In this document: positions 1-9,315 of the stretch, one piece after another
Numbering within the stretch: position 1 is the stretch's first letter
Layout: each line of letters opens with the position of its first letter
DNA from: Methanofastidiosum sp.
Lineage (GTDB): Archaea > Methanobacteriota_B > Thermococci > Methanofastidiosales > Methanofastidiosaceae
Direction: 5' to 3'
Assembly (NCBI GenBank): GCA_013329085.1
Contig: DUKX01000097.1
Location: 1-10,288, forward strand
DNA length: 10,288 bases
Made by a program: the position numbers and the translations under genes
Notes under the pieces: generated by a model
Database searches by the model: none
What the model saw: only the letters and a program-made list of their open reading frames with translations
What the model was told of the DNA's origin: nothing

Positions 1-491
1 AAGAGGAAGTTGCATTTGTATTAAGAAATCTTGGATTGGAAAAAGAACTCATAGATAAGAAGGTAGAAGAGATATTAAAGCGATTTAAGATTTATCAGTA
101 CAGAAATAGCTACCCGCATGATCTGTCGGGCGGGGAAAGGCAGAGGGTCGCACTTGCCTCTGTTTTAGTTTCAGAGCCTGAGATACTGATACTAGATGAG
201 CCTACAAGGGGTATGGACTATTTCCTAAAAAAAGAGCTGATTTCTTACCTAAAGGAAAAGGCCAAGACCGCTATCATGGTAACGCATGACGTTGAAACTG
301 CGGCAGAGTTTGCAGACAGAGTTGTTTTGCTAAGTGAAGGCAACATAATTTCTGACGGCAATAAAAGAGACGTGCTATCAAAGGCACTTCTATTTTCACC
401 GCAAATTAATAGATTGGTACAGCCCTATGCAAAATATGGCATACCTGACGATACATTGACAGTTGAAGAAGTATTAAAGGTGATCGAATAA
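1..491 (+). CDS. ECF-type ABC transporter ATP-binding protein, 3' part (5' end outside window)
   Basis: This is the C-terminal part of a cytoplasmic ABC ATPase that powers an energy-coupling factor (ECF) vitamin or metal importer. The frame is open from base 3, so the gene begins before the window; a TTG at base 36 is internal, not a start. Visible motifs are the ABC signature LSGGERQ (bases 123-143), Walker B LILDEP (186-203) and the H-loop histidine in VTHD (codon at 285). Walker A and most of the Q-loop region lie outside. The tail, with FSPQINRL and ending in a TVEEVL segment, resembles the C-terminus of EcfA-like ATPases encoded next to S-components. The next gene encodes a membrane S-component, which supports the ECF assignment. 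The stop at 489-491 overlaps the likely start region of that gene, so the two are probably translationally coupled. A T-component is not seen and may lie upstream. Confidence 0.9.
   Translation, partial: EEVAFVLRNLGLEKELIDKKVEEILKRFKIYQYRNSYPHDLSGGERQRVALASVLVSEPEILILDEPTRGMDYFLKKELISYLKEKAKTAIMVTHDVETAAEFADRVVLLSEGNIISDGNKRDVLSKALLFSPQINRLVQPYAKYGIPDDTLTVEEVLKVIE
478..485 (+). promoter_or_regulatory. strong Shine-Dalgarno site for the S-component gene
   Basis: AGGTGATC is an eight-base match to the archaeal anti-Shine-Dalgarno end of 16S rRNA. It lies within the last codons of the ATPase gene. It is 5-8 bases before two in-frame ATA codons (488 and 494) but more than 30 bases before the first canonical start, GTG at 521. 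It therefore argues that translation begins near 488, not at 521. Confidence 0.6.
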
Positions 492-520
492 AAATAAGTG
501 ACTTATTCCCCTTAATAGTT

Positions 521-1183
521 GTGGCATTAGCTGTGCTTCTTTTCGGCGGAGGTTTAGTATTTGATGAGTCTAGGACAATAGTCAAACTTTGGCCATACGA
601 GATAATAGGTATCTTTGTCCTTGTGATCATTTCTTTTGTATATCAGTTTGAAAGAAAAGAGTTCAGCACAAAGCAGCTTACGCTCATAGCGATGCTTTCT
701 GGGATATCGGCAGTTTTGAGGATCCCATTTTCTAATTTTCAAGGTATACAGCCGTGCACAACACTTATCATCTGTTCTGGTCTTGTATATGGCCCTATTG
801 CAGGATTTTTTGTTGGAGCTTTGACACCATTTGTCTCAAACTTTTTTTTAGGCCACGGGCCATGGACACCCCTACAGATGATAGGATGGGGGCTACCAGG
901 GCTTGCAGCAGGCTACCTTGGTAAAAAAGATATTAACTTTAAATTTATTATAGCGTTTGCAATTGCCTGGGGATTTCTTTACGGCTGGATAATGAATATT
1001 TGGCACTTTGCCTTTTTTGTGAAACCTCACACACTTGAAAATTTTGTCAGGACCTATGTTCTTAGCATCGGATGGGATGTGAGCCACGCATTTGGCAACG
1101 GATTATTCATGGCAATAATAGGTGAAAGGACAATTAAGATCCTAACACGATACAAGAAAAGATTTACTATTGAAAGAATGTAG
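521..1183 (+). CDS. ECF transporter S component (substrate-specific membrane subunit, CbrT-like)
   Basis: Integral membrane protein expected to bind a vitamin or related small molecule and to work with the ECF ATPase encoded just upstream. From the GTG at 521 it has 220 residues. An N-terminal pair of hydrophobic segments (about residues 1-14 and 27-42) precedes the S-component core, which starts near residue 50. The core has the typical stretch IQPCTTLIICSGLVYGP followed by the loop FFLGHGPWTPLQM (about 76-120), as in S-components related to CbrT. Cobalamin or a related compound is a guess from resemblance. The start is doubtful: the frame is open back to 467 without ATG, GTG or TTG, and the upstream codons 494-520 read ISDLFPLIV, which would complete the first membrane helix. 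A strong Shine-Dalgarno site points to 488 or 494, both ATA. The listed start is therefore conservative and probably too short. Confidence 0.85.
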   Translation: MALAVLLFGGGLVFDESRTIVKLWPYEIIGIFVLVIISFVYQFERKEFSTKQLTLIAMLSGISAVLRIPFSNFQGIQPCTTLIICSGLVYGPIAGFFVGALTPFVSNFFLGHGPWTPLQMIGWGLPGLAAGYLGKKDINFKFIIAFAIAWGFLYGWIMNIWHFAFFVKPHTLENFVRTYVLSIGWDVSHAFGNGLFMAIIGERTIKILTRYKKRFTIERM

Positions 1184-1192
1184 TTATTCTTT

Positions 1193-1324
1193 ATGTATAA
1201 CAGTCTTACTTTTACAGAAGTGACAAATGTGATCTTTCACGGGATAAAGATAGCATTTGCATTTGGGGCAATATTCTCTGACGTCTTTGGGGAAATTTAT
1301 AATGACTTTATTCTTCAATTATAA
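1193..1324 (+). CDS. possible small hydrophobic protein, 43 aa
   Basis: An ATG-started ORF begins 9 bases after the S-component gene. It encodes 43 residues with a hydrophobic centre (NVIFHGIKIAFAFGAIF) and an acidic, aromatic end. I do not recognise a family. No Shine-Dalgarno site precedes it, and its last 17 bases overlap the end of a minus-strand small ORF, so it may be chance. Its position directly behind the ECF genes would allow co-transcription. Confidence is low. Confidence 0.3.
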   Translation: MYNSLTFTEVTNVIFHGIKIAFAFGAIFSDVFGEIYNDFILQL

Positions 1325-1427
1325 CTACCTCTAAGGCCTCGCTATTTGCGATTGCAGAAATGATTGATATCAATTTATTAGCTTTTTCATTATTCAACTC
1401 TTTGTTTGGTATTTCAATCCGCAACAT
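1308..1427 (-). CDS. small hypothetical protein, 39 aa
   Basis: ATG at 1427 opens a 39-codon frame beginning MLRIEIPNKEL and ending LEVVIIEE. The pattern is a predicted beta strand, a long helix, and a second hydrophobic strand. No family is recognised. It overlaps the end of the preceding CxxC-protein gene by 14 bases, and a GAGG sequence precedes the ATG by about 9 bases. It therefore looks translationally coupled as the second gene of a two-gene mini-operon. The Lys/Glu-rich, Ile-rich composition resembles coding sequence. It is too short for certainty, but the overlap with a plausible upstream gene raises confidence. Confidence 0.45.
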   Translation of the reverse strand: MLRIEIPNKELNNEKANKLISIISAIANSEALEVVIIEE

Positions 1428-1560
1428 AGGCGCCGCCCTCTCTTTTCGAGTAGTTATTATTTGATTCTAATTGAGAAATATATTTTTCATAGCATTCTTC
1501 GCAGATTATGTAAATATCCTTTTCTAATTCAAATTTACAAATAATGCATTTGTTGTCCAT
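1414..1560 (-). CDS. small CxxC/CxxC zinc-binding protein, 48 aa
   Basis: ATG at 1560 encodes 48 residues with two cysteine pairs, CIIC (residues 5-8) and CEEC (20-23), 11 residues apart. This spacing suits a single tetrahedral zinc site in a minimal zinc ribbon. The remainder is a predicted helix (YEKYISQLES) and a polar tail. Partner and role are unknown; archaea carry many such tiny zinc proteins, often assumed to bind nucleic acid or protein. An in-frame ATG at 1581 is possible, but a TATA box at 1582-1593 lies about 26 bases before 1560, so a leaderless mRNA starting at or near the 1560 ATG fits better. The gene is followed by a 14-base-overlapping ORF on the same strand. Confidence 0.6.
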   Translation of the reverse strand: MDNKCIICKFELEKDIYIICEECYEKYISQLESNNNYSKREGGAYVAD

Positions 1561-1581
1561 ATGGATGGTGTCGCCATCCAT
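1561..1581. repeat. perfect 8-bp inverted repeat between TATA box and start codon
   Basis: ATGGATGG and CCATCCAT flank a five-base spacer (TGTCG). The repeat fills the space between the TATA box and the ATG of the CxxC-protein gene. As DNA it could be an operator. It would be transcribed only if transcription starts upstream of 1581. Confidence 0.55.
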
Positions 1582-1593
1582 TATATATAAATA
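1582..1593 (-). promoter_or_regulatory. TATA box for the CxxC-protein gene
   Basis: On the minus strand this reads ATTTATATATAA, centred about 27 bases before the ATG at 1560. This is the distance expected between an archaeal TATA box and the transcription start, so the message is probably leaderless or nearly so. Confidence 0.55.
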
Positions 1594-1634
1594 TTTCTAT
1601 GATTTCGGCTTAAAATGCAGAAAAAGTGGTAGGG

Positions 1635-1650
1635 GGAAAAGTTTATAAAT
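1635..1650 (+). promoter_or_regulatory. BRE and TATA box of the tRNA-Phe gene
   Basis: The purine-rich GGAAAA (1635-1640) followed by TTTATAAAT (1642-1650) is a textbook archaeal BRE/TATA pair. It lies about 35 bases before the mature tRNA 5' end, leaving room for a short 5' leader to be removed by RNase P. Confidence 0.75.
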
Positions 1651-1680
1651 TCCCTAAAATATTCACTTCTTATTAGGTAA

Positions 1681-1755
1681 GCCGCGGTCGCCTAGCCTGG
1701 GAGGGCGCCAGACTGAAGATCTGGTATTCCGCTGGTTCAAATCCGGCCCGCGGCA
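1681..1755 (+). tRNA. tRNA-Phe (anticodon GAA)
   Basis: A complete cloverleaf can be folded. The acceptor arms GCCGCGG (1681-1687) and CCGCGGC (1748-1754) pair fully, with discriminator A at 1755. The D arm pairs GCCT with GGGC. The anticodon stem CCAGA/TCTGG encloses loop CTGAAGA with anticodon GAA. The T arm GCTGG/CCGGC, with one T-G pair, encloses TTCAAAT. No CCA is encoded (CTC follows), as in many archaeal tRNA genes. No intron is seen. A strong TATA box lies upstream. The GC-rich gene stands out from the AT-rich surroundings. Confidence 0.97.
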
Positions 1756-1806
1756 CTCTTATATTAAAATATTTCACATTCACATATATAGGTGGAAACT
1801 AAAATT

Positions 1807-2556
1807 TCATGTTTCCATTTTATTGAAAAAATACGTCCCCAATGATCCTAATATTGAAACTATTATGACAATGACAGCAATATCTAGAAGTATACTGTGT
1901 AAAGCTGCAGATCCCATACTATATTTTAGTAGATGATTACAATATGTAAAGGGATTTATTTTTACAAGAAATTTAATTACTGGTGGAAATCCGTCGGTAG
2001 GGAATAATGCGCCTGAGATAAATATCATGGGCATTACCATGAAATTCATAATTGCCGGAAAAGAATGCATATCATCAAATTTTGAGGCGATGCTCGTTCC
2101 CAGAAGATTGAATAAAAGCGCTATAGTAAACATGACTATCAATGCCAAAGGGAATAATCCCCAATTAATTATCCTAAAACCCATAGAGAAACCTAAAAAG
2201 AGCACGATTAGTCCTTGAACAAAGCTTGTTGTAGCACCCCCTAGGCATCTTCCAAATAGGAGGCTTGTTCTTGAAACAGGGGCGACAAGTGTTTCTTTTA
2301 AGAATCCAAACTGCTTGTCCCATATAAGAGACATACCCCCCATTGTCGAGCTCATTAGGATAGTCATGCCAACAATGCCCGGGATAAGAAATTGAATATA
2401 GTTACCTCTCCCAGACTGTTCAAACATCCCGCCTATTCCAAATCTAAAAGCAATTAAAAACAATGATGGTTGCACCAAAGTTACAGCCAATCTTTGCCTA
2501 TTCCTAAAATAAGACTTAATTTGCCTATGCCACATCACTACAAGTGCACTGTTCAT
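1807..2556 (-). CDS. ABC-2 type transporter permease (DrrB-like)
   Basis: Membrane subunit of an ABC exporter, 249 residues, the usual length for the DrrB/NodJ type of ABC-2 permease. An amphipathic start (residues 1-25) is followed by about six membrane segments. The family's conserved loop WDKQFGFLKETLVAPVSR lies at residues 79-96, and the late ISGALFPTDGFP and INPFTY segments (180-205) are typical. It should pair with the ATPase encoded upstream to export a hydrophobic compound such as a drug, lipid or glycoconjugate; the substrate cannot be read from the sequence. The start at 2556 has an excellent Shine-Dalgarno site (AAAGGAGGT, 2564-2572) seven bases upstream. It is the third gene of the PadR-ATPase-permease operon, with a 30-base gap after the ATPase. 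It converges on the tRNA-Phe gene about 50 bases away. Confidence 0.93.
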   Translation of the reverse strand: MNSALVVMWHRQIKSYFRNRQRLAVTLVQPSLFLIAFRFGIGGMFEQSGRGNYIQFLIPGIVGMTILMSSTMGGMSLIWDKQFGFLKETLVAPVSRTSLLFGRCLGGATTSFVQGLIVLFLGFSMGFRIINWGLFPLALIVMFTIALLFNLLGTSIASKFDDMHSFPAIMNFMVMPMIFISGALFPTDGFPPVIKFLVKINPFTYCNHLLKYSMGSAALHSILLDIAVIVIIVSILGSLGTYFFNKMET

Positions 2557-2586
2557 CTCATAAACCTCCTTTGCATAAGGTTATTA

Positions 2587-3339
2587 TTATTTATCTGCAG
2601 ATTGCTCTCTTATGCCATACCCCGTAAGAGTTAAAAATGCATTTTCAAGGGTCTTTGTTTTAGTAGCCTTCTTAATCTCTTTTGAAGTCCCTTGACTCAA
2701 TATCCTTCCCTTATCTATAATGGCAATTTTTGTAGCAATATTTTCAACTTCCTCCATATTGTGCGTTGTAAAAAAGATTGTTATTCCCTGCTCTTCGTTG
2801 ATTTTTTTAATATAGTTCCAAAGAAATGCTCTTGTCTGGACATCTAGCCCCAATGTAGGCTCGTCAAGAAACAATATTGTGGGTGAGTGTAGCAATCCTC
2901 TTGCAATTTCAATTCTTCTTTTCATCCCGCCAGAAAAGGTCCTTACAAGGTCATTTTTTCTATCAAGGAGCCCCACATAATGTAGCATATCATCAATTTT
3001 TTCACGCCTTATTCTTTCAGGGATTTTATATAAAGCTGAGTGGTAATATAGATTCTCGTAAGCTGTAAGCTCATCATCTAAAGTATGGTCTTGAAAGATG
3101 ACTCCTATTGATTTTCGTACTTCACTTTTTTCGTTATGGATATTATAATTATTGATAAATATTGAACCATCTGTTGGGTATAATATTGTTGTCATCATTT
3201 TGATTACCGTTGACTTCCCTGCGCCATTTGGTCCTAAAAATGCAAAAATACCTCCCTTTTCTACTTGAAAACTAATATCGTCGACAGCGACAAATTGATC
3301 AAATTTTTTCGTTAAATTTTTTACATCAATTGCTATCAT
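2587..3339 (-). CDS. ABC transporter ATP-binding protein (DrrA-like)
   Basis: Cytoplasmic ATPase of an ABC-2 exporter, 250 residues, with a complete motif set. Walker A is GPNGAGKST (36-44), the Q-loop is Q83, the signature is FSGGMKRR (135-142), Walker B is ILFLDEP (155-161), the D-loop is LGLD (163-166), and H193 ends the switch motif FFTTH. The FSGGMKRR signature and the TIFFTTHNMEEVE stretch are typical of the DrrA/NatA-like drug-export class. It energises the permease encoded next. The start at 3339 is supported by AGGAGAT (3345-3351) five bases upstream. Its first 14 bases overlap the end of the PadR gene, indicating coupled translation. The C-terminal extension after residue 215 is short compared with DrrA proteins over 300 residues long. 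Confidence 0.95.
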   Translation of the reverse strand: MIAIDVKNLTKKFDQFVAVDDISFQVEKGGIFAFLGPNGAGKSTVIKMMTTILYPTDGSIFINNYNIHNEKSEVRKSIGVIFQDHTLDDELTAYENLYYHSALYKIPERIRREKIDDMLHYVGLLDRKNDLVRTFSGGMKRRIEIARGLLHSPTILFLDEPTLGLDVQTRAFLWNYIKKINEEQGITIFFTTHNMEEVENIATKIAIIDKGRILSQGTSKEIKKATKTKTLENAFLTLTGYGIREQSADK

Positions 3340-3796
3340 TTTGAATCTCCTGAAGCCTTCTTATGCAATCTTCAAGGATTGCCTTAACTTTATCGTTGTT
3401 TATTCCTGAGCATTCATCTATATGGAGGTACATCTTAAACCACAAATTATCAATGTCAGAATGCACGTTTTTGAAATCTGTAAAAATGATCGGAACATAC
3501 TTCATTTTATTTCTTATTCCTCTCTTTTTTTTATCCATTTCCTTAAGATATTTTATTCCTTTATCAGTCAATGAAAATGTTTTTTTGCCACGGGCCTCTA
3601 TCTTTTCAATTTTCAATATATTTTTATTTTCCAAATTATCAAGGAGGGGGTATATGTTACCTTTGCTTATGACTATAGTCCCCTTACTTTTCGTGCTTAT
3701 TTCTTTGAGTATATCATACCCCGATTTTGGACTTTGTTTAATAGAATGTAAACAGTAATATTCAAGGATTCCTGTCATCTTGCGTGGGCATGGCAT
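3326..3796 (-). CDS. PadR family transcriptional regulator
   Basis: DNA-binding repressor of 156 residues. The N-terminal winged helix-turn-helix spans about residues 8-88 and contains the PadR hallmark SKGNIYPLLDNLE (44-56), where the recognition helix packs, followed by the wing and the LTDKG segment (76-80). The C-terminal part (about 90-155) is helical, as in PadR proteins that dimerise and bind a ligand there. As first gene of an operon with a DrrAB-type exporter it most likely represses that operon and responds to the exported compound; this arrangement is common for PadR genes. ATG at 3796 lies about 26 bases from a TATA box, so the mRNA is probably leaderless. An internal ATG (Met7) is a weaker alternative. 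The end overlaps the ATPase gene by 14 bases. Confidence 0.92.
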   Translation of the reverse strand: MPCPRKMTGILEYYCLHSIKQSPKSGYDILKEISTKSKGTIVISKGNIYPLLDNLENKNILKIEKIEARGKKTFSLTDKGIKYLKEMDKKKRGIRNKMKYVPIIFTDFKNVHSDIDNLWFKMYLHIDECSGINNDKVKAILEDCIRRLQEIQNDSN

Positions 3797-3817
3797 GACT
3801 TGATGTTAATTAAACTC

Positions 3818-3837
3818 TTTATAAATATTACTATTTA
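3818..3837 (-). promoter_or_regulatory. PadR operon promoter with overlapping inverted repeat
   Basis: On the minus strand TATTTATAAA (3818-3827) is a TATA box about 26 bases before the PadR ATG. A perfect 6-bp inverted repeat, TAAATA-TTAC-TATTTA (3822-3837), overlaps it and the BRE position. A repressor bound there would block TBP/TFB, so it is a candidate PadR operator. AT-rich repeats also arise by chance. Confidence 0.5.
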
Positions 3838-4082
3838 GCACCGTGCGGAAAAGAACTATTTTTACTCTTTTAATCCCTAGAAATTAAGAATGGCAGTTGT
3901 TGCGTATAAATTCTATATGATATAATTTTATGTTAATCACATAGCCTGTGGTGCTCTTATTTCAAATTTGAATTCTTCTTTTCTATTCCTGAATTAGAAA
4001 TAATTTTTATAATTCTATATTATTACAAATCTCTCCTCTTGGTGCCAATATTCATTTATTAATCTTATTAATTATAAAATCT
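3838..4082. other. intergenic region between two minus-strand transcription units
   Basis: No ORF of useful length is present on either strand. The region contains a 12-bp palindrome TTCAAATTTGAA (3961-3972) and an ATGT-N5-ACAT repeat (3930-3942). It should hold the 3' end of the transcript from the downstream-facing unknown gene. I see no convincing RNA gene. Confidence 0.5.
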
Positions 4083-4766
4083 TCATATACCGGATACTTT
4101 ATCCCCCTTGCCTTTTAGGAGATTATGCAAATCTTTTCCCTTTGTGATTCTATTGGAAGTATAAGTTACATTTTTATCTTCTATAGGATTAATTCCCATA
4201 CCAAAAGAATCATAATTTATCCAGTTATTTTCTTTCGATGAAAAAATATTTGTAGATATCCATAAAATTCCATGTAACCCATTTATTTTTGCATTTTCTA
4301 TTAATTCGTTCCATTCCATAGTTTTTTCAAAATTAATAAAAAATATTAAATACAAAGTTTCTTTTTCATTTTTTTTCAGTGTATATGGAATCCAATTTCC
4401 CTTAACAGCTTTTCTAAAATCTGCATAGTTTTTTATTATTTCTCCATAATCCACAATGTGTTTGGCCATAAATTCAAAATTATCATGTAAGGTTTTTTCA
4501 CCTTGCCCAAACGTAGCATTAACAACTAACTTTACATTTTTGACTTCGCCAATCTGGCTGTCATAATTACAAATTCTAATGCCTGCCAAAAAGTATGAAT
4601 TCTCATAAGAATTTTCAGGAATAAAAATTAGAGGTTCCATAAATCGTGCATTTAATTTAAAGGGAGATAAAGTGCTTTTCCACAAGGCAATCAATGCAAC
4701 AATCAATGAAAATAACGATATAATTACAGATGGGTAAAGTTTTATAGTATTTATAATATCTATCAT
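4083..4766 (-). CDS. hypothetical single-pass membrane protein, 227 aa
   Basis: I do not recognise this family. A single N-terminal hydrophobic helix (about residues 12-29, SVIISLFSLIVALIALW) is followed by KSTLSPFKLN and a roughly 190-residue soluble part rich in aromatic residues, Asn and Lys. Alternating hydrophobic patterns (LIFIPE, YFLAGIRICNYD, VKNVKLVVNATF, KETLYLIFFINF) suggest a beta-sandwich-like domain. There are no catalytic motifs. The short N-terminus with no strong signal cleavage site suggests a membrane anchor; topology is uncertain. The ATG at 4766 has no Shine-Dalgarno site; an AT-rich TATA-like TTTAAAAAT lies at about 4795-4803 (minus strand). The gene is very AT-rich and sits in an accessory stretch with RNase III-like, KAP NTPase and propeller genes, so a link with them is possible but unproven. 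Confidence 0.75.
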   Translation of the reverse strand: MIDIINTIKLYPSVIISLFSLIVALIALWKSTLSPFKLNARFMEPLIFIPENSYENSYFLAGIRICNYDSQIGEVKNVKLVVNATFGQGEKTLHDNFEFMAKHIVDYGEIIKNYADFRKAVKGNWIPYTLKKNEKETLYLIFFINFEKTMEWNELIENAKINGLHGILWISTNIFSSKENNWINYDSFGMGINPIEDKNVTYTSNRITKGKDLHNLLKGKGDKVSGI

Positions 4767-4822
4767 TAAATCAATTAGTCGTTGAATTATTTAATTTTTA
4801 AATCTTTTTGAATAATAACCCC

Positions 4823-4937
4823 TCATTTGTCCAAAGCATTCTTGATAATCACAAGTGCCATAGCTCTTATGTAGGGATCTCCGTGTCTTGCTAGTTCTTC
4901 TAACCACTCTTTATTCTCATAATAATATTTGGCGAGT
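4823..4937 (-). pseudogene. HEAT-like C-terminal fragment in the +1 frame after the RNase III-like gene
   Basis: The minus-strand frame from the RNase III-like stop to a TGA at 4823-4825 encodes about 38 residues, including WLEELARHGDPYIRAMALVI. This is a helix-turn-helix pattern like a HEAT repeat. The frame has no ATG, GTG or TTG near its beginning; the only Met is late. It is +1 relative to the RNase III-like frame, and the frames meet at an A4 run next to the stop (4939-4946). Removing one A would fuse it to the upstream ORF. It is either a broken or frameshifted C-terminus, a sequencing indel, or the remains of another gene. Confidence 0.45.
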
Positions 4938-5381
4938 TTATTTTAGACTCGTCATTCCTCTTTTGACTCCTCCTTTTTCATTTTTTTCAAATATCTTTAG
5001 ATTGTTCTTTAGGATATATTTGACTTTTTCTATATCCCTATTTGAATCAAGATATATTGCAGCAATTATGGATTCCATCAGATTACCCCAAAGTTCTTCT
5101 CTTTTATGGCCTTCTATATTTTTTATAGTATGTTTCAGGTACCTTTCAAGTCCGTGTGATTTAACAATTCCAAAGAGGAATGGATTATCCTCGTAAACTT
5201 TTACTTCTGCTTTAGTAATTCTCTTTTTTTCAAGTTCTTCATAAAAATTATCCCAAACGATATATCCTAGTATTTTATCCCCTAGATTTTTTAAGTTTTC
5301 AAATGTTCTCTCAAAAATGTCTGTTCCTTTGACTGATTCATGCGTAATAGCTTTCTCTAAAAGCCTTTTATCTTTAAACAT
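4938..5381 (-). CDS. RNase III-like domain protein without dsRNA-binding domain
   Basis: This 147-residue ORF matches the RNase III catalytic fold. It has DKRLLEKAITHES near the start, LKNLGDKILGYI (30-41) at the position of the signature helix, and LMESIIAAIYLDS (101-113) at the second metal-binding helix. Compared with bacterial RNase III, E28, D35 and E103 are kept. The usual metal-binding Glu of ERLEFLGD is K31, and the Asp of the D-x-x-E motif is N100. It is therefore a noncanonical, possibly inactive member. No dsRNA-binding domain follows. The in-frame sequence upstream of the ATG (codons from 5423) reads IGPDISEIERLIGY, typical of the family's N-terminus, so the true protein probably starts earlier with a non-ATG codon or the gene has lost its start. 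The 3' end also looks broken. Confidence 0.65.
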   Translation of the reverse strand: MFKDKRLLEKAITHESVKGTDIFERTFENLKNLGDKILGYIVWDNFYEELEKKRITKAEVKVYEDNPFLFGIVKSHGLERYLKHTIKNIEGHKREELWGNLMESIIAAIYLDSNRDIEKVKYILKNNLKIFEKNEKGGVKRGMTSLK

Positions 5382-5438
5382 GTACCCTATTAATCTTTCA
5401 ATTTCTGAAATATCAGGGCCAATATAATTAACTTTAAG

Positions 5439-5452
5439 AAATAATATATTAA
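5439..5452 (-). promoter_or_regulatory. TATA-like box for the RNase III-like gene
   Basis: The minus strand reads ATTAATATATTATT, centred about 24 bases before an in-frame ATT codon at 5423. That ATT begins the family-like N-terminal sequence. This suggests transcription starting close to 5420 and possible leaderless initiation. The match is AT-rich and therefore weak. Confidence 0.35.
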
Positions 5453-5472
5453 TCTATCTTGATTAACAATGT

Positions 5473-5516
5473 CTAACTCTTAAATATTCTCCGGCTTAGA
5501 GTTAGCCGATTGGCTA
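5473..5516. repeat. overlapping, mutually exclusive inverted repeats in the divergent intergenic region
   Basis: Three stems share bases. CTAACTCT (5473-5480) pairs with AGAGTTAG (5498-5505). CGGCT (5492-5496) pairs with AGCCG (5504-5508). TAGCC (5503-5507) pairs with GGCTA (5512-5516) around a four-base loop. The patch is richer in G and C than the flanks. It lies between the predicted promoters of the divergent RNase III-like and KAP NTPase genes. It could be an operator or part of a small RNA. Confidence 0.5.
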
Positions 5517-5598
5517 GCATCTTTTGAATAATATGTTTAGATCCTTTTTAGACAAAACAGAGGGAGAAAAGAGCTTCTTTTGAAGAGACATAATTGGC

Positions 5599-5609
5599 TA
5601 TATTTTTAT
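5599..5609 (+). promoter_or_regulatory. TATA-like box for the KAP-propeller operon
   Basis: CTATATTTTTA lies 31-41 bases before the KAP ATG at 5640, predicting a start near 5630 and a leader of about 10 bases. No good Shine-Dalgarno site lies between. The region is AT-rich, so the assignment is tentative. Confidence 0.4.
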
Positions 5610-5639
5610 TACTATTAAGATGAGAATAAGAAGATAAAC

Positions 5640-7184
5640 ATGAAAAGATATTTATATCCAAGGTATAATTCTCAAGAGATGCCTGAAAATGATATAGCGG
5701 ATCTTCTTAATAATGATAGCATTTCGGATAGAGAATTAGGGAGTGTTGAACAAGATAAACTAGGATTTAGGCATCTAATTATTCCATTTATAAAATACAT
5801 TGAAAAAGTAAATGCTCCAACTGTTATTGGAGTTTATGGTGAATGGGGCGCAGGGAAAAGCTCTTTTCTTAATTTTGTTTGGAATCAGATTAAAGAAAAT
5901 GAAAAAAAAGAAGATAACAAAATTATTAATGAAAGAATTGATTTTGATGCTAGCAAATATAAAGAAGATAAAACTTTATGGAAATCATTTTTTCTTGTAT
6001 TATTAAAACAATTAAAGGCCAAGAACTTACTGGGTTGTATAATCCAAAGTTATCGTAGATCTAATAGTCTAAAAAGTAAACTATGCTTCTCAGAAAATAA
6101 ATTAAAGTTAGATTTTCCAAAAATAATTTTAGCCTGTCTATTAAGTCTCGCCTTGTTTTTATATATGAAATCAAAATATGGCTTCGAAATATCTCTTATA
6201 ATTTTTATCTTAGGAATTCTATTTGAAATTTCTTTTATTAAAACTACAATGGGACCAATCGAATCTTTTTCAGAATTTGAAGAAGACCTAAATATACTTA
6301 AATTACAATTAAATAAAAAATTAAACGGCAAGAGAATATTTGTTTTCATTGAAAACTTGGACAGAGTAGAACCCAGATATGCAATTAATTTATTAGAATC
6401 GATTAAGAACCTTCTTGATTTTAATAATTTTTACTACATTATCCCGTGTGACCCAAACATGATGAAAGAAGAAATAAAATTACTATATAATAAAGACGAT
6501 GTAAATGCAGAGGATTTTCTTAACAAAATCATAAACGTTCCTTTTTATTTACCGCCAATAAAATCTTTGGTTTTTGAAACTGAATTTTTGCAATCATTAT
6601 TAAATCAAGAAAAATACAATCTTAAAGAAATATCAAAAATATTTAATGAAGCAAACGTGAAAAACCCGAGAAAGGTCAAAATTATTTTAAGAGAAACAGA
6701 GTTCGCTTATAATTTTATGCCCGGATTGCATATTGATACAACTAAAATAAACTTATCTGTTTTAACTACATTAATATTAATAAAACATAACTATCCTTCA
6801 TTTTTTACAATACTAAAAAATTATGTAGAATTCAAAACTATAGATTTAGAAGGCATATTAAAAAAAGTTTTATTTATTGAGAACCTACATAAGCCTCTGG
6901 TAAAAAATGAGATAATCCTCAACACAATAGACTATTTTTTTGGCGTAATTTCTTCAACTAAAAAAATTCCATCTTCACTTGACAATAAAGAAGTAGAAAG
7001 AATTAGAAAAGAAATGTATTCTTTTTTAGTGTTCTTTGATAAGTGTGGCTTAAGAGAGCAAATGAAAAACATAATTGAAGAACTACCAAATTACCTTTTA
7101 GCAGTATCTGTAGTTTCTGAAACAATAGAAGCTACGATTGGCTTTAGTGGTTCAGTAGATATAAAAAAGAATAATGAATCTTGA
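5640..7184 (+). CDS. KAP family P-loop NTPase, membrane-inserted
   Basis: A 514-residue member of the KAP NTPase family (Kidins220/ARMS and PifA group), which are STAND-like NTPases with membrane helices inserted in the P-loop domain. Walker A is GVYGEWGAGKSS (64-75). Two hydrophobic helices (about 162-176 and 184-200) follow with only a short loop, giving a hairpin that leaves the NTPase halves in the cytoplasm. The Walker B region is RIFVFIENLDR (232-242): the LDR signature is intact, but the usual Asp-Asp is Glu-Asn. EDFLNKIINVPFYLPP, shortly after, is the family's characteristic KII-x-PF-x-LPP segment, and KNPRKVK is a sensor-like motif. The C-terminal helical part is unassigned. PifA of plasmid F blocks phage T7, so defence is possible. 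The stop overlaps the TTG of the propeller gene by four bases (TTGA), indicating coupled expression. Confidence 0.88.
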   Translation: MKRYLYPRYNSQEMPENDIADLLNNDSISDRELGSVEQDKLGFRHLIIPFIKYIEKVNAPTVIGVYGEWGAGKSSFLNFVWNQIKENEKKEDNKIINERIDFDASKYKEDKTLWKSFFLVLLKQLKAKNLLGCIIQSYRRSNSLKSKLCFSENKLKLDFPKIILACLLSLALFLYMKSKYGFEISLIIFILGILFEISFIKTTMGPIESFSEFEEDLNILKLQLNKKLNGKRIFVFIENLDRVEPRYAINLLESIKNLLDFNNFYYIIPCDPNMMKEEIKLLYNKDDVNAEDFLNKIINVPFYLPPIKSLVFETEFLQSLLNQEKYNLKEISKIFNEANVKNPRKVKIILRETEFAYNFMPGLHIDTTKINLSVLTTLILIKHNYPSFFTILKNYVEFKTIDLEGILKKVLFIENLHKPLVKNEIILNTIDYFFGVISSTKKIPSSLDNKEVERIRKEMYSFLVFFDKCGLREQMKNIIEELPNYLLAVSVVSETIEATIGFSGSVDIKKNNES

Positions 7185-9115
7185 GAGATTTTTCAATAGA
7201 AAATAATAAATATAACTTTAATATCTATTTTTACATGAAAATTAACATTTTTATTTTATTCTTCTTTATTATATTTTTTTCTCAAATTATTCCAACTATC
7301 TGTGATTATCCCGAAAAGTCACAATACTTCTTTGAAGGCTCTCCTATGAGTGTTTCACTTTCGCCCGATGGAAAATTCTTTGTTGCAGGTTCTTCTGATT
7401 ATTATGTATATTTATTTGAGAGATATAATCCTAATTGTATAAATAAATATAAAACCAAAGGCTGGGTAGAAAGCGTTTCGTTCTCAACCAAGGGTAACTA
7501 CATAGTTGCAGGTGTTCACTACTATGATTACAAAAATGGGAACAAAGAATCTGCCATTTATTTATTTGATAATAAATTATTGTACAGATGGGATAAGGAT
7601 ATTGGAGACGGAATACATTCTGTAAGTATCAGTGGTAAAGAAGATTATATAATAGGTGGAGACATATTTCAATCTTACCTTTATGATTTGAATGGTAATC
7701 AAATAGATTTTGATTCGGAGTACTCGGGGGTAGATGTTTTTTATAATAATGCCGGAAATTATTTTTTAACTGTAGATTCTGCGTTTTCAATTCCTTCAGA
7801 GATTACAATCTATGATTCAAATCAAAAAATAATCAACACAATTACTATTTTAGGGTATTCCTACGAAGCAGCTATTTCTAATAGGGGAGATATAGTAGTT
7901 GAATCTAAAAATTATAAATCTGATACACATATAGTAAGCTATTATGATTTAGAGGGTAAATTAAAATGGAGTTTGCCAACAAGAAAAGCAAATGAAATTT
8001 CAATTACCCCTAATGGTAGTATTATTGCATTGGCTACGGATAATTTTATAGTCCTGTATGATTCTGACCGAAACGTTATTTGGGAATCTGATGAAAAAAT
8101 GCAATATTCGTCCGTATCCATATCCTCCGATGGTGATACTCTTGTATTTAGCTCATATAACGATATTTATGAGAAATCTCTAGGCAATATATTAGGTAGC
8201 CATATGAGAAATAACTTACATCAAGAAATTTTTAATGAAGAAAACAATCTGGAATTTTATAAATATAAGGTCGATAATTTAATTATCGAATCAAATAAAC
8301 ATATAGATTATTGGGAATTCTCGAAAGCTTTAGAGAAAACGCTTTTAGCAAAAAAACTGGTTTTTGATATAGATGAAGATGATATAAAAAATGATTTAGA
8401 TCCACATAAATATATAGATGATAATTACATAAATGACGTTAATAACTCAATTAAACTTAATTTGGAGTATGATGTCAATAATCCGAAGTATGATATAGGA
8501 AAGATAAAAAAAGACTTCTTAATTGCATTAGACCTTGCGGATAAAAATCCAGAAAATTGTAAACTAGCTTTAATTGAAGTAAACATATCCGCACAGGATA
8601 TCGATGGTGATGGAATTCCTAATATAGATGATAATTATACCTACATCGATGATAATATCATTAAAAATGTTGGAGACGTTATTAAAGACAATGAGAAATA
8701 CAAACCTGACAATGCAATAAGTAAGTATAATTTTGCCTTAGAAATAGCTAATATTGATCCCGATGCAAGTCTTTCATATCTTTATGATGCTAATGAATCC
8801 GCAAAGGATGTTAATCACAATGGTATACCCAACGATAAAGATGGAACAATAAATAAAATAAGAAAAATATTGGAAGATTCAAATATTAGTATTTTATTAT
8901 ATGTGGCACTGACTATTAGTATTATTTTGAATATTATTCTATTTTACGTAAAAATTTGCCCTAAATATAGAAATATAAACAATATGGAAAATCTCATTGT
9001 TCACCAAAAAAGCAGATACTATAAATTAAAAAAATTTATTGATAATCCCATAATAAAAATAATAGAATTTGGTATTAATATAATAGCTTTATTAAATATT
9101 CTTAGAATCATATAG
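7181..9115 (+). CDS. exported beta-propeller protein with calcium-loop repeats and C-terminal membrane segments
   Basis: Starts at TTG 7181 (644 aa), overlapping the KAP stop, or at ATG 7235 (626 aa). The ATG gives a cleaner signal peptide (MKINIFILFFFIIFFSQIIP, then CDYPE). Numbering from TTG, residues about 53-335 hold seven blade-like units with hallmarks such as VSLSPDGKFFVAGS and ISITPNGSIIAL and strands ending YLF/YDL; this is a WD40/PQQ-like propeller common in methanogen surface proteins. A helical part follows. Two repeats start at YIDDN (411 and 488) and end in DIDGDGIPN (473-481) and DVNHNGIPN (543-551), resembling calcium-binding thrombospondin-3 or dockerin loops. A membrane helix lies at about 569-590 and a hydrophobic C-terminal end at 624-644. 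The likely topology is an outside-facing propeller anchored in the membrane. Co-expression with the KAP NTPase suggests a sensor or receptor role. The function is otherwise unknown. Confidence 0.82.
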   Translation: MRDFSIENNKYNFNIYFYMKINIFILFFFIIFFSQIIPTICDYPEKSQYFFEGSPMSVSLSPDGKFFVAGSSDYYVYLFERYNPNCINKYKTKGWVESVSFSTKGNYIVAGVHYYDYKNGNKESAIYLFDNKLLYRWDKDIGDGIHSVSISGKEDYIIGGDIFQSYLYDLNGNQIDFDSEYSGVDVFYNNAGNYFLTVDSAFSIPSEITIYDSNQKIINTITILGYSYEAAISNRGDIVVESKNYKSDTHIVSYYDLEGKLKWSLPTRKANEISITPNGSIIALATDNFIVLYDSDRNVIWESDEKMQYSSVSISSDGDTLVFSSYNDIYEKSLGNILGSHMRNNLHQEIFNEENNLEFYKYKVDNLIIESNKHIDYWEFSKALEKTLLAKKLVFDIDEDDIKNDLDPHKYIDDNYINDVNNSIKLNLEYDVNNPKYDIGKIKKDFLIALDLADKNPENCKLALIEVNISAQDIDGDGIPNIDDNYTYIDDNIIKNVGDVIKDNEKYKPDNAISKYNFALEIANIDPDASLSYLYDANESAKDVNHNGIPNDKDGTINKIRKILEDSNISILLYVALTISIILNIILFYVKICPKYRNINNMENLIVHQKSRYYKLKKFIDNPIIKIIEFGINIIALLNILRII

Positions 9116-9185
9116 GCAGTAAGATTTAATCGTTTAGATTTTTATTATAAAGTTAGATTAGTCGACATCTTTTCCATTTCTTCTT

Positions 9186-9287
9186 TCATTTTTGGATTGG
9201 AATTATAGTTTCTACAACCTCTAGAATCTTCTTGAAATATTCAAGCATTTTTGTATATATCTTTGAGATTCCTAAGAAATTATCCAT
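9186..9287 (-). CDS. possible small amphipathic protein, 33 aa
   Basis: ATG at 9287 opens a 33-codon frame beginning MDNFLGISKIY and continuing as an amphipathic helix rich in Lys, Glu and Ile (YFKKILEVVETII). There is no Shine-Dalgarno site or clear promoter. In the neighbouring frame the following bases read NPKMKEEMEKM, also protein-like, so the stretch could be the decayed end of a longer gene. Support is weak. Confidence 0.2.
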   Translation of the reverse strand: MDNFLGISKIYTKMLEYFKKILEVVETIIPIQK

Positions 9288-9315
9288 AATATTCTCGTTT
9301 TATACAAATCGTTCA

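Follow-up and report, generated by a model that had tools for sequence, protein, structure and literature searches.

We describe a divergent membrane KAP P-loop NTPase encoded on a contig of the archaeon Methanofastidiosum sp. (DUKX01000097.1), which was analyzed in its entirety (10,288 bp, hereafter the window). The protein carries an NTPase domain with a membrane hairpin, as defined by hydropathy, and its gene is located in a genomic island absent from relatives, where it adjoins the gene of a lineage-type surface propeller protein. We favor, with roughly even confidence, the reading that this NTPase is an accessory, probably antiviral protein attached to the inner membrane, encoded in an island linked to tRNA-Phe and co-carried with the propeller. 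Defense is our best guess for its function, as judged from sequence. An initial annotation of this DNA had gone further, suggesting that the propeller senses a signal outside the cell and relays it to the NTPase. Most of its sequence observations were right, its claim of translational coupling is weak, and recurrence in the loci we covered lends a two-gene system no support. The annotation had not recognized the pair as a described system, and we likewise found no pairing of KAP with an exported propeller in the open-access PMC literature.

A membrane KAP NTPase in a tRNA-Phe-linked insertion

The KAP gene occupies positions 5640..7184 on the plus strand and encodes 514 amino acids (501 if translation starts at M14, as in the database call P0030). 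Its product matches PF07693 with an E-value of 3.3e-31 and 109.1 bits, above the curated cut-off of 20, confirming the family to which it was initially assigned. In an alignment with seven relatives (eight members in all), residues G67, W69, G70, G72, and K73 are invariant in the Walker A region GEWGAGKS (residues 67-74; 5838..5861, plus strand), as are E238, N239, L240, D241, and R242 in the Walker B region IFVFIENLDR (residues 233-242; 6336..6365, plus strand), where the motif reads IENLDR. The in-domain hairpin that had been noted earlier was also recovered: between the two Walker motifs, residues 157-175 and 182-200 stand out as hydrophobic by hydropathy (6108..6239, plus strand), and the AlphaFold2 (AF2) model places helices at 159-180 and 182-198, with a predicted local distance difference test score (pLDDT) of 53-79 by block. 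A subset of KAP P-loop NTPases has membrane helices of this kind within the NTPase domain. The matches of the model in PDB (RdrA, ORC2, BrxC, and others, with E-values from 5e-4 upward and TM-scores of 0.13-0.40) suggest an AAA-like ATPase and nothing finer.

The closest relatives in the protein database are seven proteins, P0031-P0037, which are 35-39% identical to the window’s KAP; the two that are named come from Methanofastidiosum sp. and Candidatus Methanofastidiosa. One of them, P0031, bears a C-terminal HNH_2 nuclease domain at residues 541-590 (PF13391, E-value 1.8e-7; PADLOC HNH, 8e-11), possibly an effector fusion. The window’s KAP extends a defense-linked family by a small divergent subfamily of eight, itself included, one of which is nuclease-fused. 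These seven, out of 17 database relatives, formed the alignment, and P0038-P0047 (E-values 1.7e-11 to 6.8e-4, coverage 8-74%) were dropped; in the database searches with both KAP and the propeller, approximately 8000 candidates sharing the most words were scored.

The gene resides in a strain-specific insertion of 7.5 kb (1760..9305), which starts immediately 3' of tRNA-Phe (gaa; 1681..1756, plus strand, detected by ARAGORN) and extends to the core CMD gene. We read this segment as an insertion at a variable site because two genomes of the genus have only 23 and 24 bp in its place and three others hold different DNA there. Specifically, the left flank (window 1-1759, comprising energy-coupling factor transporter genes and tRNA-Phe) aligns at 89% to contig C69 of genome G009, after which the alignment breaks, and the match resumes 23 bp later at the CMD gene (window 9306 onward; L180). 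The same-genus genome G003 has 24 bp in place of the insertion (L172), and tRNA-Phe and CMD are separated by 991, 1076, and 1382 bp of other DNA in G001, G002, and G006, respectively. The CMD stretches of G004, G005, G007, and G008 and of G009 contig C64 did not include tRNA-Phe and were uninformative on the site. The empty sites identify tRNA-Phe/CMD as a location that varies and in which accessory genes of the lineage may be sought. A search for direct repeats of at least 14 nt shared by the end of the tRNA and the right edge of the insertion found none. Composition varies along the insertion: the guanine-cytosine (GC) content is 0.26-0.30 across the KAP gene, the propeller gene, and two genes ahead of them (orf227 and an RNase III-like gene), against a background of 0.318 (166 kb), with KAP itself at 0.264, and an exporter gene pair and its PadR regulator have an ordinary GC of 0.346. 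The low GC of KAP and the propeller is suggestive, not extreme.

Clear KAP genes are sporadic. Counting the window’s own genome, they were found in 2 of 115 genomes of the phylum (E-value <= 1e-7) and in 13 of 396 archaeal relatives (E-value <= 1e-10, with up to five candidates scored per genome). A profile of the close KAP family, run against 21 genomes of the order, detected the window and a single match of 34 positions (E-value 6e-4, G016), and it detected none in the nine other genomes of the genus (68-99% complete). At an E-value of 1e-3, PF07693 scored above its cut-off in 7 of the 21 genomes, the window included; we rejected the six weak matches as KAP genes, as they span approximately 40-55 residues at the P-loop end of the model, score 20-21 bits, and none reaches an E-value of 1e-7. 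A plasmid search with KAP matched 65 records, none covering 80% of the query and none above 38% among the 20 matches listed. A viral origin was also considered and rejected: three scans of viral contigs returned one distant KAP locus only (L121).

Likeness to known defense proteins

PifA of the F plasmid is a KAP NTPase that excludes phage T7 and acts at the membrane, and PDC-S20 is a single-gene defense candidate of PADLOC. Searched against PADLOC, the window’s KAP matched PifA (5.9e-30), PDC-S20 (8.3e-24), and QatA (4.5e-19), and the same three models lead for the six relatives scanned, out of the seven. With PifA it shares the KAP domain, the PifA model covering residues 27-397. It is similar in length to the PDC-S20 model (464 positions, no curated cut-off), which it matches in two stretches, the best at 166-370, and the nuclease-fused relative P0031 aligns to this model over 17-421 of its 464 positions; PDC-S20 is a candidate system only, not known to have a tested function, and the model list records no partner propeller for it. 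With its two membrane helices, our protein may also resemble Tmn, a KAP NTPase described as acting against phage and as having two unusual transmembrane domains (PMC11846954), although no Tmn-named PADLOC model matched it. In other studies, KAP ATPases are named in anti-phage immunity (PMC8195603; PMC10853773), beta-propellers appear in further conflict systems with NTPases, one example being a fusion to a vWA component (PMC7159879), and KAP NTPases are counted among diversified sensors in a paper that also includes a neighboring peptidase with a propeller (PMC10907252).

The defense reading draws on these lines together: the KAP family with its Walker motifs, the matches to PifA, PDC-S20, and QatA, the HNH domain of P0031, the possible likeness to Tmn, the sporadic presence, the insertion, and the low GC. 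By analogy, the window’s KAP would be of the PifA, PDC-S20, or Tmn-like sort. It may be an antiviral ATPase that works in the manner of abortive infection at the cytoplasmic side of the membrane. Nucleotide would drive its assembly or a change of its shape, in which the hairpin and the helical C-terminal region would take part. Upon virus infection, the protein would then disturb the membrane or stop growth.

Several observations weigh against this reading. The PifA model has 720 positions, of which our 514-residue protein matches only 5-351 and not the full length. The QatA family model of NCBIfam (NF041923) scores 63.7 bits, where its cut-off is 600. Pfam and NCBIfam scans revealed no other recognized defense gene in the window, with PADLOC applied to four proteins only, and no integrase among the window’s open reading frames (ORFs) scanned. 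KAP and the propeller each fall within the lowest 6.5% of 276 background windows by GC, and the AF2 model of KAP is poor (pLDDT 59). KAP proteins with other roles also exist, such as the scaffold Kidins220. Beyond these points, no Qat partner (QatB, QatC, or QatD) was found by PADLOC in orf227, the RNase III-like protein, or the propeller, the three proteins searched for them.

The adjoining propeller protein

The gene downstream of KAP (7235..9115, plus strand) encodes a propeller of the exported, membrane-anchored type that is common in the lineage, 626 amino acids long if counted from ATG 7235 and 644 from TTG 7181. Its architecture agrees largely with the initial description of a signal peptide, seven blades, repeats, and C-terminal membrane helices. 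The N-terminus (7235..7303) is signal-peptide-like: residues 23-41, numbered from the TTG, form a hydrophobic segment resembling an export signal, and the propellers of the genus to which it was aligned also open with a hydrophobic stretch (14 of 28 database relatives were used in the alignment). Residues 46-335 (7316..8185) form a seven-bladed propeller of the WD40/PQQ-like kind: AF2 strands, grouped by hand, give seven four-stranded blades and a closing strand at 46-49, blade starts fall at residues 57, 98, 147, 184, 230, 272, and 311, the pLDDT averages 87 (range 66-94) in the 28 ten-residue blocks over 51-330, and seven-bladed structures are matched in PDB at E-values of about 1e-16, the top match being a designed seven-bladed propeller (E-value 1.1e-16, TM-score by target 0.83).

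From residue 411 onward, two copies of a module of approximately 75 residues follow (8411..8860), whose self-alignment scores 103, compared with 35.5 +/- 7.0 for shuffled sequences, none of 1000 reaching it. Each copy ends with a DxDxDG-like loop, of which one is an exact DxDxDG (473), as had been described, and the other is the variant DVNHNG (543). Judged from its sequence, the module region may be a stalk; AF2 confidence is below 50 over residues 342-576. A membrane helix (8885..8953; hydrophobic residues 569-587, with a low-confidence AF2 helix at 569-591) is followed by a tail of 31 residues, predicted to be cytoplasmic and containing seven lysines or arginines to two aspartates or glutamates, and then by a C-terminal hydrophobic helix (residues 620-641), the tail and this helix together spanning 8954..9109. 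Residues 335-644 matched only themselves in the protein database, in a search requiring shared five-residue words, and residues 411-562 had no match in 60 related genomes.

Propeller matches occur in all 10 genomes of the genus, two to nine in each. Among the loci inspected, in eight of them (G000, G002, G003, G004, G005, G006, G008, and G009), a signal peptide, a propeller, and a membrane helix are followed by a pair of zinc ribbons, as identified by eye, and a shorter protein with a signal peptide, a propeller, and a membrane helix is encoded in six (G000, G001, G002, G003, G006, and G007). The zinc-ribbon proteins (approximately 495 residues) resemble the window’s propeller in their signal-peptide-like start, propeller, and membrane helix, with 28% identity over residues 39-312; in contrast, the window’s protein lacks a zinc ribbon and has the tandem 75-residue module, and it ends with a short basic tail and a hydrophobic helix. 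With their ribbons predicted to be cytoplasmic, the zinc-ribbon propellers possibly represent an outside-to-inside receptor layout. They were found at L123:4734-6212, L025, L007, L008, L010, L015, L032, and L005, and a relative of this family in G001 stops at 353 residues, without a membrane helix or ribbons.

The initial annotation had the propeller gene overlap KAP by four bases (TTGA) and took this as a sign of translational coupling. Although the letters are present at 7181-7184, translation probably does not begin at TTG 7181. ATG 7235 is directly at the export signal, whereas TTG 7181 would add 18 residues before it; the database gene call (P0001, 626 amino acids) also begins at ATG 7235, leaving a gap of 50 nt after the KAP stop. 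Irrespective of this, three of the four bases that can precede a TGA stop make a possible start codon. No Shine-Dalgarno-like motif was found at TTG 7181, ATG 7235, or the KAP start; such a motif occurs near a start in 40 of 70 background ORFs of at least 200 amino acids (23 stretches), a generous count that allows any start in the first 40 codons. Given the better start at ATG 7235 and the lack of the motif at either candidate, coupling via TTGA is not supported. The two genes are probably co-transcribed, and their translational coupling is doubtful.

The KAP–propeller pair across genomes

We examined whether KAP genes elsewhere adjoin a propeller, as the initial annotation would lead one to expect. 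Among 79 distinct KAP loci of the species collection (from 80 of 208; only 20-30% identical to the query KAP), none had a propeller-profile match in a same-strand ORF within 300 nt, and two (L052 and L102) carried a propeller elsewhere in the locus, not adjacent. Twelve of these 79 loci lacked an adjacent same-strand ORF, and in four the KAP ORF was within 300 nt of the locus end. Similarly, none of 12 other archaeal KAP loci had a propeller match in the fetched stretch, those of G297, G317, and G364 being on contig ends or short contigs. The protein database also has the pair (P0001 and P0030 on a 27.6 kb contig), but its sequence is that of the window and does not count as a separate case. 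The nine other genomes of the genus, in turn, have propellers and none has this KAP. Thus, within the loci covered, adjacency in independent genomes was not seen and propellers occurred without the NTPase, the two outcomes that the initial annotation itself had named as speaking against a paired system. A general KAP–propeller pairing was accordingly discarded.

The best-surviving alternative, which we consider somewhat unlikely, is that the two genes are chance neighbors: the propeller would be a surface protein of the lineage gathered in the variable tRNA-Phe site, and KAP would act alone. The presence of propellers in every genome of the genus fits this view, as does the site itself, where G001, G002, and G006 have other genes; that of G001 is, by eye, propeller-like and comes without KAP. 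Conversely, the two genes follow one another in the same orientation within a 7.5 kb island and have a similar composition, which suggests that they were acquired together. This alternative overlaps with the antiviral reading that we favor, so that the confidences we attach to the different readings do not add up to one.

We regard as unlikely a two-gene transmembrane system in which a ligand or virus particle would be bound outside the cell by the exported propeller, whose membrane helices and basic tail would switch KAP inside. The genes share a strand, separated by 50 nt or overlapping by 4 nt, both are AT-rich and lie within one insertion, the topology fits, with the basic tail following the first membrane helix, and an outside-to-inside layout exists in the zinc-ribbon propellers of eight of the ten genomes of the genus. 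However, no propeller adjoined KAP in either set of loci above, no relative of the C-terminal half of the propeller was found, and propellers are common without this KAP. Because they share strand, AT-rich composition, and one 7.5 kb insertion, the two proteins may still function jointly, and the propeller might trigger the NTPase directly; support for a sensor–NTPase system is limited to one locus. The 79 loci are distant and leave aside the decisive neighborhoods, those of P0031-P0037 (a first contig scan gave no KAP relative, and a second gave distant loci only), and they do not settle whether the sensor interpretation is right. Were the propeller to control the NTPase, this would be an unusual, outside-sensing design of defense.

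It is very unlikely that KAP serves envelope maintenance, as an ATPase that remodels the membrane or acts as a scaffold in connection with the surface protein and has no part in defense: both proteins have membrane helices and Kidins220 offers the precedent of a KAP scaffold, but the nine other genomes of the genus yielded no match to this KAP, which is located in an insertion and has one relative fused to a nuclease. We also hold it very unlikely that the pair is an archaeal surveillance device, whose propeller, on a stalk of calcium loops, would bind, for example, an attached virus particle outside and trigger the membrane KAP inside by way of its membrane helices and basic tail. Such a device would provide immunity able to detect infection ahead of viral genome entry.

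We also considered whether hairpin-bearing KAPs favor an exported neighbor, here a same-strand gene next to KAP whose product has a hydrophobic stretch at its N-terminus. This was the case in two of eight hairpin loci and in 11 of 79 loci overall (both Walker A and Walker B were located in 56 of the 79), numbers too few for a conclusion. Individual archaeal loci differ in what follows KAP. In G257, an exported-looking, membrane-anchored protein is encoded downstream (L194:3990-5063) with a weak transglutaminase match (E-value 5e-4, below the cut-off), so that KAP may have exported neighbors of other kinds. In G126 (L202:6089-9711), a KAP with two hydrophobic segments overlaps the next ORF by four bases; this ORF encodes 587 amino acids of no clear Pfam family and no propeller. 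The KAP gene of G320 (L201:5413-6809) is interrupted by one TGA stop, and that of the same-genus G196 is open.

The remaining genes of the insertion lie upstream of KAP. An ABC-2 exporter pair (DrrA/DrrB-like) and a PadR regulator, identified by Pfam and NCBIfam matches, precede orf227 (4083..4766, minus strand), which has a GC of 0.279, an N-terminus that appears hydrophobic by eye, and no assigned family: its best Pfam match, Ntox50, is below the cut-off (E-value 0.15), and neither PADLOC nor NCBIfam gave a match. The RNase III-like protein (147 amino acids; 4938..5381, minus strand; PF14622, E-value 1.6e-13) has a single weak match (E-value 7e-4, G020) among the 20 other genomes of the order. 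A similar gene occurs near the KAP of G257 (L194:2758-3282). As a KAP partner it was rejected: among KAP loci, a three-sequence model matched only the window and L194, both of which are in the model.

Other observations concern the site itself. The right edge of the insertion (9172-9295) is 80% identical to DNA upstream of CMD on G009 contig C64 (L169:8760-8882) and resembles the remnant of a small minus-strand ORF, and the G009 bin seems to contain both empty and occupied versions of the tRNA-Phe/CMD site. In G001, the site (L170:1086-2076) holds a short ORF that by eye is exported and propeller-like, without KAP. A different ORF is found at the site of G002 (L171:9048-10123), and by eye the two ORFs have a similar KSLP-type tail.

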